Of a stretch of 45,035 nucleotides of DNA, positions 1-2,805 are shown piece after piece. Numbering within the stretch: position 1 is the stretch's first letter; each line of letters starts with the position of its first letter. This DNA comes from Armatimonadota bacterium (GTDB lineage: Bacteria > Sysuimicrobiota > Sysuimicrobiia > Sysuimicrobiales > Kaftiobacteriaceae): NCBI GenBank assembly GCA_020028455.1, contig JAHZOA010000003.1, forward strand, positions 1 to 45,035. The letters run 5' to 3'. Below the pieces are notes generated by a model. The model was not told the origin of the DNA. It saw only the letters and a list, made by a program, of their open reading frames with translations, and made no database searches. A program made the position numbers and the translations under genes.

Positions 1-1259
1 TGCGGCACGAGACCGCGGCGTTTCTTGCAGACGGTGTATCCGATCTCGGGAACCTCAGACTCAGGACAGCAGGTGCAGCCGATCGTCTCGGGCGAGATAT
101 TATGATGTGCCATCATCGTCGGGTACATGGAGGAAAAATCGAGCTCGCCGACTTCCTCAAACATCCCCACGATCGGCTGATAGGTCAGACCTCCTTTATC
201 AGTAAGCAGCAGTTGGCTCGCGGTCTTGAACCCTTCCGGTTCGCTCTTCTGCCAGGGGATGAGTACGCCGTCCAGGATTGCCTGGTTCAGTTGCATCGAG
301 CTGATCGCGGTCCCCGTCGAGGTGCGCGCAAGTTCCTGGACAGGGATGCGTGACAGGACAGCGACGTCAAGCAAACCGGCAAGCTCCGACTCACCATAGA
401 TAAACGAATTACGCAGGTCGAGATGCCACCGGCCATGCAGCATGTGCGCGCCGCCCTGAAACACGACCTTGCCGTAAGTCATATAGGAGCGTGAACGCCG
501 AAGACGCACCCCGGCCGCCGTGTCGCGGCTGAGAGCCAGCGGCATGCCGGCATCCCGCGCCATGGTGCGCAGCCCAGGCAGCAACACTTCATCGCCCCAC
601 TCCGTGAGAATGACGTCGGGATCATATCGGGCGAGCAATCTGTTCAGGCTGTGAATCGATTCTCGCGGATCGTCTCCATCGAGCAGCAGCGCCTCGCCAT
701 CCATGACGGCCTCGATCCGCCCCCGGCGCCCATGCGTCGGATTCGCCCCATCGCTGCCGGTCTCATGACTCAGGCGCAGCCTGAGGACAACCAGGGGTGG
801 CACAGCGTACTCGAGATCGTTGGAGTTACTCTCAATACCAATCTCCCGGACAATGTCGCCATCACATGTCACCCGCACGCGGGCCAGTGGGAACAGCCTA
901 CTTTCATAAAAGAACAAGCGCCCGAGGGGGACGTCGCAGTTGTAGAGAGCCAGCCCGGGAACTTTGGCCAGACGTCGTGCCACCACCGGATACGCCAGGG
1001 GATTGTCTACCGAAACGCGGAGGACATCAATCTCATCGCCACTCATCAACTCCTTTTGCACGGCAGGCGATGTAGTGATGGGAATCCTAAGCGAGCGTAC
1101 CGCCGACTCTGCCGCCCCACGGGCGCGGCGGTCTCCACCGATGTACATGGACGGTGCGTATCGATATCGGACCCGATGAGGCTTGCCTTCGGTGTCAATG
1201 ATCCACAGCACCATGCCATCCTGGGACGGATAGACGTCAAATAGCCAACCGTGGAGCAT
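1..1259 (-). CDS. Family B DNA polymerase (PolB2/Dpo2-like candidate), partial: C-terminal part lies beyond the left edge
   Basis: Manual translation from ATG at 1259 gives 419 open codons to the window edge: MLHGWLFDVYPSQDGMVLWIIDTEG...ARTSTGTAISSMQLNQAILDG...GELDFSSMYPTMMAHHNISPETIGCTCCPESEVPEIGYTVCKKRRGLVP. DFSSMYPTMM..NISPETI is family-B polymerase motif A. Absent from the ORF track because it has no stop inside the window. Confidence 0.9.
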   Translation of the reverse strand, partial: MLHGWLFDVYPSQDGMVLWIIDTEGKPHRVRYRYAPSMYIGGDRRARGAAESAVRSLRIPITTSPAVQKELMSGDEIDVLRVSVDNPLAYPVVARRLAKVPGLALYNCDVPLGRLFFYESRLFPLARVRVTCDGDIVREIGIESNSNDLEYAVPPLVVLRLRLSHETGSDGANPTHGRRGRIEAVMDGEALLLDGDDPRESIHSLNRLLARYDPDVILTEWGDEVLLPGLRTMARDAGMPLALSRDTAAGVRLRRSRSYMTYGKVVFQGGAHMLHGRWHLDLRNSFIYGESELAGLLDVAVLSRIPVQELARTSTGTAISSMQLNQAILDGVLIPWQKSEPEGFKTASQLLLTDKGGLTYQPIVGMFEEVGELDFSSMYPTMMAHHNISPETIGCTCCPESEVPEIGYTVCKKRRGLVP

Positions 1260-1260
1260 C

Positions 1261-1539
1261 CTAGCCGGGTGGGAGTTGCGCGCTCCCGCCGGTGAGTGCA
1301 TCAAGCCTCTCCCGAATCGCTTCCACCGCTTTCATGGTCTCCAACACCATCGCGAGCAAGATGGAATCGAACGGCGTCGAGTGAGAAGCATAATGCCCCG
1401 GCGCGGAATGGTGGCGCGCGGCGGCAAAGAGACGGTCGAAAATGAGCTGATCTTCTTTTCGCAGCGCCCTCCTGTATGGAGCCCAGTACGCCTCTTCTTG
1501 AGCCACCAACTGGGTCATCGTCTGCGTCGTACGACCCAT
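1261..1539 (-). CDS. Small conserved-looking protein (92 aa) in the PolB operon
   Basis: MGRTTQTMTQLVAQEEAYWAPYRRALRKEDQLIFDRLFAAARHHSAP...; ATG overlaps the upstream stop (TGATG at 1541-1537); its TAG is one base before the polymerase ATG. Confidence 0.8.
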   Translation of the reverse strand: MGRTTQTMTQLVAQEEAYWAPYRRALRKEDQLIFDRLFAAARHHSAPGHYASHSTPFDSILLAMVLETMKAVEAIRERLDALTGGSAQLPPG

Positions 1540-2180
1540 CACCACCACCTCCGCGGCGCAATCATCCCGATCTGCGGTTCCCACGTCCACGCTCCGGACT
1601 GCGGCTTGCGGCACTTAATATAGATGAGGTCACGATCTACATCACGACTCACATCGAATACCCACGCTGCTGACTCGCACAGTGCGGAGAACAATCCCTC
1701 ACGACCTGGTACCTGCTGTGGTGGTGGACAGCCGCACACCGTCAGTACGCCACCACGGACCAACCGTTGAAGTACAGGCGGTATCAGTCTGAAAATGCGA
1801 AACGCTTCCCCTGAGGGGACTTCCTCATCGAGCAGAGGATCGAGAAGACCTGAGAAGTACACCGCCTTCGAGTGGAATTGCTGGACCGCAACGTGAAGCC
1901 TCTCTCGCACTAACGCCTCAAGTTGGTGACAGGTAAACACTCGAGAGATTCGGATCTCGTCGAGGATTGCTCGGGGTGCGATTCCGAACTTTCGGGCTAG
2001 GTCCGCCACGAGAAACGGGTCAAAGGCGTTTGCCCCATCAACAATAAGCAGTGGCTGCCCTTTGGTCGTCGCGCGGAGGCTCATCAGCAGCCCCAGGGTC
2101 AGGGTCGCATCGTCGCCGGAAAACACCACCGGACCTGTTGACACTTCGGGCACAGGTAATGTCAAAGGAGCTGGGAGCAT
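1539..2180 (-). CDS. RecA/Rad51-superfamily-like protein with degenerate Walker motifs
   Basis: LLIVDGANAFDPFLVADLARKFGIAPRAILDEIRISRVFTCHQLEALVRERL resembles the RadA/Rad51 segment after Walker A; no GxxxxGK[ST] present. Confidence 0.7.
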   Translation of the reverse strand: MLPAPLTLPVPEVSTGPVVFSGDDATLTLGLLMSLRATTKGQPLLIVDGANAFDPFLVADLARKFGIAPRAILDEIRISRVFTCHQLEALVRERLHVAVQQFHSKAVYFSGLLDPLLDEEVPSGEAFRIFRLIPPVLQRLVRGGVLTVCGCPPPQQVPGREGLFSALCESAAWVFDVSRDVDRDLIYIKCRKPQSGAWTWEPQIGMIAPRRWW

Positions 2181-2187
2181 GGGGTAG

Positions 2188-2201
2188 CGAACAAGTGTTC
2201 G
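2188..2201. promoter_or_regulatory. LexA/SOS box, Gram-positive type
   Basis: Exact palindrome CGAAC-AAGT-GTTCG, 7 bp upstream of the start codon of the RecA-like gene. Confidence 0.8.
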
Positions 2202-2214
2202 GGCTTAATCCTAG

Positions 2215-2243
2215 GTTACCACTGTTCGGCAAGGGGCTGTCAA
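2215..2243 (-). promoter_or_regulatory. Candidate promoter of the PolB operon
   Basis: Minus strand has TTGACA (2243-2238) followed after about 18-19 nt by a weak -10 (TAACCT), just upstream of the LexA box. Confidence 0.4.
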
Positions 2244-2292
2244 ACTGGCGGAGTGGCATCAGGTCTGCTATTTCAAACAGACGGGCATTTGC

Positions 2293-2805
2293 ATGACGAG
2301 ATTCCCTGTGGTCATCCCAACAATATCTCTTCGGCGAAAGGCAACGGCAGCGGCGCCCGCATGGCTTTTCTGCGTGGCTCTGCTGGTCGTCGAGATTGTC
2401 CTGGTCGTGGCCATTATGACCGCGGCCACCCACCAAAATCTCGCCACAATCTACGCTCGGATCGCTGCCCAGGAGCCGATGCTGAATATGCTCAACAACG
2501 CTTCGGCGAAAGTCGTCCCGCTCACGGGCAGATCAGGCGCCGTCGTTCGGCTTGTCTATGACTCAGCTCAGAAGCGCGGCGTGCTGCTCATCGCCACTCT
2601 CGGGGATCCGGGCGACGAGTTTTCCTACCGGCTTTGGATGGTGAGCAGATTCGGATCTCGAAGCGCCTGGGCATTTGACGCTGGTGCTGAGGACCTGACG
2701 GTCATCCCGATTAAGGCAGATTTCGCTCTCTATGACAGGGTCGCGATTTTCGTCGAGCACCGCAACTCCTCACGGTCTGCTCCAATCCTCTTCGGGAGCC
2801 TCTGA
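2293..2805 (+). CDS. RskA-like anti-sigma C-terminal domain protein lacking the zinc-finger N-terminus
   Basis: One TM segment, then VVPLTGRSGAVVRLVYDSAQKRGVLLIATLGDPGDEFSYRLWMVSRFG..., colinear with the C-terminal half of the 7245-7949 protein. Confidence 0.65.
   Translation: MTRFPVVIPTISLRRKATAAAPAWLFCVALLVVEIVLVVAIMTAATHQNLATIYARIAAQEPMLNMLNNASAKVVPLTGRSGAVVRLVYDSAQKRGVLLIATLGDPGDEFSYRLWMVSRFGSRSAWAFDAGAEDLTVIPIKADFALYDRVAIFVEHRNSSRSAPILFGSL

Follow-up and report, generated by a model that had tools for sequence, protein, structure and literature searches.

The left edge of a 45-kb contig carries a three-gene cassette of archaeal origin and of the error-prone DNA-repair type, and its features are, with high probability, best explained by a LexA-repressed operon that produces a PolB2 mutasome. 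The contig (C240) is the whole stretch of DNA analyzed, referred to here as the window, and belongs to a MAG of 270 contigs and 2.34 Mb. Gene content, gene order, an operator, the loss of exonuclease and ATPase residues and a cleavable LexA were all read from the DNA. Synthesis across lesions, assembly of the complex and induction by damage would be expected in this organism. The ORF list and the sequence place iRadA, PPB2 and PolB2, in this order, on the minus strand:

3 to 1259, minus strand: PolB2, N-terminal 419 amino acids, cut by the contig end (PRK05761.1-2 and DNA_pol_B matches)
1261 to 1539, minus strand: PPB2 (arCOG07300-type), 92 amino acids, with N-terminal MGRT arm (MGRT conservation; motif in PMC11791011)
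1539 to 2180, minus strand: iRadA, Rad51/RadA-like pseudo-ATPase, 213 amino acids (profile and fold matches to RadA, RAD51 and DMC1; P-loop absent in alignment)
2188 to 2201, no strand assigned: predicted LexA-type operator CGAACAAGTGTTCG (perfect palindrome; kept in phylum operons; same motif before lexA and recA)
2213 to 2243, minus strand: candidate sigma-70-type promoter with TTGACA (2238-2243), a 19-bp spacer containing operator-like CGAACAGTGGTA, and TAACCT (2213-2218) as -10 element (TTGAC(A)...CGAACAGTGGTA kept in the f1 family)

The original prediction had described three tightly coupled minus-strand genes, and the ORFs and their junctions confirmed this. The ATG of PPB2 overlaps the TGA of iRadA (TGATG), and PPB2 and PolB2 are joined by TAG-G-ATG. 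The last 192 residues of PolB2 were found on contig C16 (L003:3653-4231, minus strand). Approximately 135 residues, including motifs B and C, fall in the assembly gap between C240 and C16, and this middle part was absent from the rest of the assembly. Beyond the PolB2 end on C16 come a convergent DUF72 gene and SecD, in that order, and relatives have the same arrangement downstream. Divergent from iRadA, the window carries a gene for an RskA-like anti-sigma C-terminal domain (2293-2805, plus strand). A second iRadA was detected at the end of contig C254 (L038:5923-6276) as a 100-residue fragment of 74% identity behind CGAACATTTGTTCG, adjoining homologues of the TPR-protein and HupE neighbours in the window. 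A second complete operon in the genome was rejected, since C254 offers just this fragment at a contig end. Probably, C254 comes from a related organism binned with this genome, or else represents a second copy left unresolved by the assembly.

Profile and structure searches matched all three proteins to the published PolB2/PPB2/iRadA triad. The best NCBIfam model for the PolB2 fragment was PRK05761.1-2 (E = 1e-50), which we take to represent archaeal PolB2. The PolB2 of a congener matched this model with E = 2.5e-124, yet remained under its curated cut-off of 516 bits; the polymerase of locus L030 scored 416 bits. Proofreading archaeal family-B polymerases read GDNFDFP at ExoII. The Asp position of this motif is Leu in the window PolB2 (GDEVLLP), Leu or Ile in the other sequences, and Ala in a mutant PDB chain aligned to PolB2; the ExoI region does not align. 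The 3'-5' exonuclease of the window PolB2 is predicted to be disabled. Motif A is intact (ELDFSSMYP), and the D(K/R) motif, which forms the contact to the PPB2 arm in the PolB2 mutasome, is present (TDKGGLTYQP). D[K/R]GG was found in all aligned rows except L049 (DQGG). Note that in-frame insertions interrupt motif B (LVT^C...AN^SFGYLGYR) in the PolB2 genes of L032, L035, L102 and L104; they match Intein_splicing weakly, and one contains LAGLIDADG. These insertions are apparently inteins, and the genes carrying them belong to several families of the phylum. In L035, Asn follows the insertion in place of the usual Ser, Cys or Thr.

The Pfam match of iRadA to Rad51/RadA was below threshold, and the relationship was clear by profile comparison. 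Its predicted fold (pLDDT 82.5) has DMC1, RAD51 and RadA as best PDB matches. As in the iRadA of the PolB2 mutasome, a RadA/Rad51 fold is combined with absence of the N-terminal domain and of ATPase motifs, including Walker A in the alignment. A clamp-binding motif in iRadA or PolB2 is a trait of some PolB2-mutasome members only. We found no strong motif of this type in the window iRadA, just a weak QIGMI close to the C-terminus; clear clamp-type tails (QLPLF/QPALF) occur in Chloroflexota iRadA. PPB2, with 92 residues compared to ~90 expected, begins with MGRTTQT. The N-terminal MGRT has been described as the signature of PPB2/arCOG07300 (PMC11791011), and all 8 family sequences that include the start have kept it, at 80-89% identity.

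The perfect LexA-type palindrome that had been noted just upstream of the genes was located at 2188-2201. This sequence, CGAACAAGTGTTCG, stops 8 bp short of the iRadA ATG and is the sole exact CGAAC-N4-GTTCG in the window. The 2.34-Mb genome contains 9 exact sites, versus 3 for the reversed control pattern, and 4 of the 9 directly precede genes: two sites stand before iRadA, one before a Y-family polymerase-like gene and one before dnaB. CGAAC-N4-GTTCG was present within 150 nt upstream of iRadA in 19/19 phylum operons (16 exact, 3 with one mismatch), against 0.07 expected in a simulation with the dinucleotide statistics of each upstream sequence; these are all the phylum operons with the iRadA start covered, from 19 different but related genomes, and so are not independent events. 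The flanks around the box have diverged and its placement differs between families. It fills the -35/-10 spacer in families f2, f4 and f6 (TTGACAT-box-TATAAT), whereas in family f1 a conserved element, TTGAC(A)...CGAACAGTGGTA, lies upstream of it. In the window, TTGACA and TAACCT upstream of iRadA may constitute the promoter, with a weak -10 element.

A similar box, CGAAC-N4-GTTTG, is located close upstream of lexA in 31/31 lexA loci examined and ~50 bp before the ATG of the window genome's own recA (C214:14208; we considered only recA genes with a box upstream of the start, excluding matches in coding sequence). The motif at the iRadA promoter can thus be tied to LexA. The LexA of the window genome, encoded on contig C143, has kept the Ala-Gly cleavage site (TAGLP), the catalytic Ser (GESM) and the catalytic Lys (ATVKRF), and is predicted from these residues to be self-cleavable. 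Most phylum genomes (G001-G042) encode two LexA-type proteins; one was found in the window genome. Contig C203 has two LexA-type boxes 17 bp apart, CGAACCTCCGTTCG and CGAACAAATGTTTG (L041:780-824), just upstream of a gene with an N-terminus like that of the replicative helicase DnaB.

PolB2 was detected in 9/10 genomes of the family and 23/43 genomes of the phylum, an uncultured one. Named relatives are CSP1-3 and ANGP1 MAGs, CSP1-3 being the phylum Sysuimicrobiota (PMC11604079). In a tree of 49 PolB2 sequences, a supported branch separated the 16 phylum members from the others, and the window sequence paired with its congener. The survey of gene neighbourhoods suggested in the original prediction showed that phylum relatives keep the order iRadA-PPB2-PolB2 along with the box, and not a consistent lack of box and partner genes. 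Outside the phylum, 40/397 genomes of one Chloroflexota class, that of a Chloroflexota relative, have PolB2, in the order iRadA-PPB2-PolB2 wherever all three genes were detected. Among 28 iRadA promoters from Chloroflexota, the box GAAC-N4-GTTC was exact in 5 (0.04 expected) and present with at most one mismatch in 10 (0.97 expected). Two Chloroflexota genomes also have this box ahead of lexA-type genes. The other 18 of the 28 promoters have no recognizable GAAC-N4-GTTC box, and bacterial PolB2 can therefore not be defined by LexA control. Nor was a LexA box seen at the single Bacteroidetes-labelled locus or at the Bathyarchaeota locus. On these grounds we rejected the idea of one LexA operator shared by all bacterial PolB2 operons; predicted LexA control is common, not universal. 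In the Bacteroidetes-labelled MAG, the triad (L050:2300-7304) has SRAP and DUF72 genes as neighbours and a lexA-type gene (L176) immediately upstream. Such surroundings match published bacterial polB2 neighbourhoods, in which lexA, SRAP and DUF72 are nearby.

The catalytic residues bear on the question whether the operon encodes instead an SOS-induced but catalytically dead complex, having a regulatory or scaffolding role (e.g. at stalled forks or origins) and performing no lesion synthesis itself. PolB2 was read as dead in 2014 (PMC4104785). Consistent with this, iRadA has no P-loop, and the first Asp of the motif C DxD is replaced (LVD, IVD or similar) in 16/16 relatives covering it, including the congener, the window's own motif C being in the gap. 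However, this Asp is lost in most published PolB2, among them the active S. islandicus enzyme (PMC11791011), and Dpo2 of S. islandicus is needed for targeted mutagenesis despite its absence (PMC7390963, PMC11791011). Moreover, the motif A Asp and the second Asp of motif C are invariant across 40-80% identity, as selection for catalysis predicts. We consider a dead complex unlikely. If the polymerase were an ordinary replicative or proofreading enzyme of family B (Pol II-like) whose neighbours are unrelated, this would account for the generic match to Pfam DNA_pol_B and for the overall fold: the predicted model of the same-genus PolB2 (pLDDT 84.4), from locus L042, where all three genes are complete, is similar to Pyrococcus and KOD PolB. 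Pol II models, in contrast, score far under PRK05761.1-2, and the polymerase is part of a conserved triad with iRadA and PPB2. The original prediction had named a replicative PolB with intact exonuclease as the outcome that would speak against it; the replacement of the ExoII Asp by Leu, together with the non-alignable ExoI and the triad, led us to reject this reading, which retains hardly any probability.

As to the palindrome, a 10-base palindrome arises by chance several times per genome, and the operon would lie outside the SOS regulon if CGAACAAGTGTTCG bound a different repressor or were a functionless sequence, fortuitous or phylogenetically inherited. Several observations argue against this. 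The box is kept within 150 nt of iRadA in all 19 of the related operons (0.07 expected), for which chance occurrence was rejected, and it sits in or beside the -35/-10 region. The same motif precedes lexA and recA, and the altered box of Chloroflexota iRadA promoters has its counterpart in an equally altered box at the lexA promoter. A palindrome without connection to LexA is thus very improbable. At the sequence level, the triad matches, the disabled exonuclease, the gene order and the operator support the proposal that this is a PolB2-type mutasome of a bacterium, controlled by LexA.

The PolB2 mutasome itself is not new. Makarova (2014) reported the triad in bacteria, with lexA within the same predicted operon in Leptospirillum ferriphilum (PMC4104785), and Timinskas (2025) found lexA genes enriched near bacterial polB2, gave the bacterial order iRadA-PPB2-PolB2 and modelled the complex (PMC11791011). 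The window operon shares with this system all three subunits and their order, the MGRT arm, the lost P-loop and exonuclease site, the DUF72 neighbour and the SOS association. It differs in that lexA is not adjacent (contig C143), the link being the operator at the iRadA promoter. The original prediction had regarded the regulatory wiring as uncharacterized. This no longer applies to the triad and a nearby lexA, which are published; for operators at iRadA promoters, our literature search, itself incomplete, found no description. The operator evidence appears to be a new, regulatory observation, and a fairly strong one. The earlier hint, lexA genes in the vicinity of bacterial polB2, thereby becomes a claim about regulation that is concrete and can be tested: throughout a phylum, the SOS repressor of bacteria would control a mutagenesis cassette of archaeal origin, through an operator matching the host LexA motif. 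Bacterial PolB2 function is known so far only from computation.

The statement in the original prediction that archaeal PolB2/Dpo2 is damage-induced, linked to mutagenesis and encoded with RecA-like and small partners was borne out by the literature (PMC7390963, PMC11791011). DNA damage induces Dpo2 of Sulfolobus, and targeted mutagenesis depends on this polymerase (PMC7390963). Its operon encodes a homologous polymerase and partners, but is linked to archaeal Orc1/Cdc6-type regulators (PMC11791011) and not to LexA. The parallel drawn with ImuA-ImuB-DnaE2 stands as an analogy of function, both being SOS mutasomes and the RecA-like subunit of the latter often being without ATPase motifs. It does not extend to homology: ImuA-ImuB-DnaE2 combines a C-family polymerase with inactive Y-family ImuB, neither homologous to the triad, whereas the RecA-like subunit here is a Rad51/RadA relative. 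C-family DnaE2 and Y-family ImuB are absent from the window operon, whose polymerase is B-family. A similar architecture has been argued for a Y-family polymerase system with a small arm-inserting subunit and RecA (PMC11791011), in which the small subunit is not homologous and the cell's own RecA is used.

Based on relatives and published models, the LexA-repressed PolB2 mutasome might operate as follows. Upon DNA damage, RecA would trigger the self-cleavage of LexA, allowing transcription of the operon. iRadA would dock on PolB2 via a Rad51-like interface, and a PPB2 trimer would insert its MGRT arm where a cleft separates the two, giving the heteropentamer expected of a PolB2 mutasome. PolB2, devoid of proofreading, could then extend mismatched or lesion-blocked primer ends, resulting in error-prone damage tolerance, in line with what is reported for Sulfolobus Dpo2 (PMC7390963) and with the published model (PMC11791011).

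A second operon on contig C122 (L039:2-3408, minus strand), comprising a Y-family polymerase-like gene and a DnaE-type polymerase gene, follows immediately after a box, CGAACAAGTGTTCG, whose sequence is the same as that before the window operon. We tentatively propose, as a possibility that is well short of probable, that the two mutasomes (PolB2; inactive-PolY plus DnaE) are co-induced from identical LexA operators, perhaps as inserter and extender of one SOS pathway, and that the PolB2 cassette is under LexA both in Sysuimicrobiota and in part of Chloroflexota, each with the host's own operator. The Y-family-like protein of C122 lacks the usual acidic catalytic motif at its N-terminus (CVRIPAFE) and has a clamp-type motif, QLTLF, near its end.
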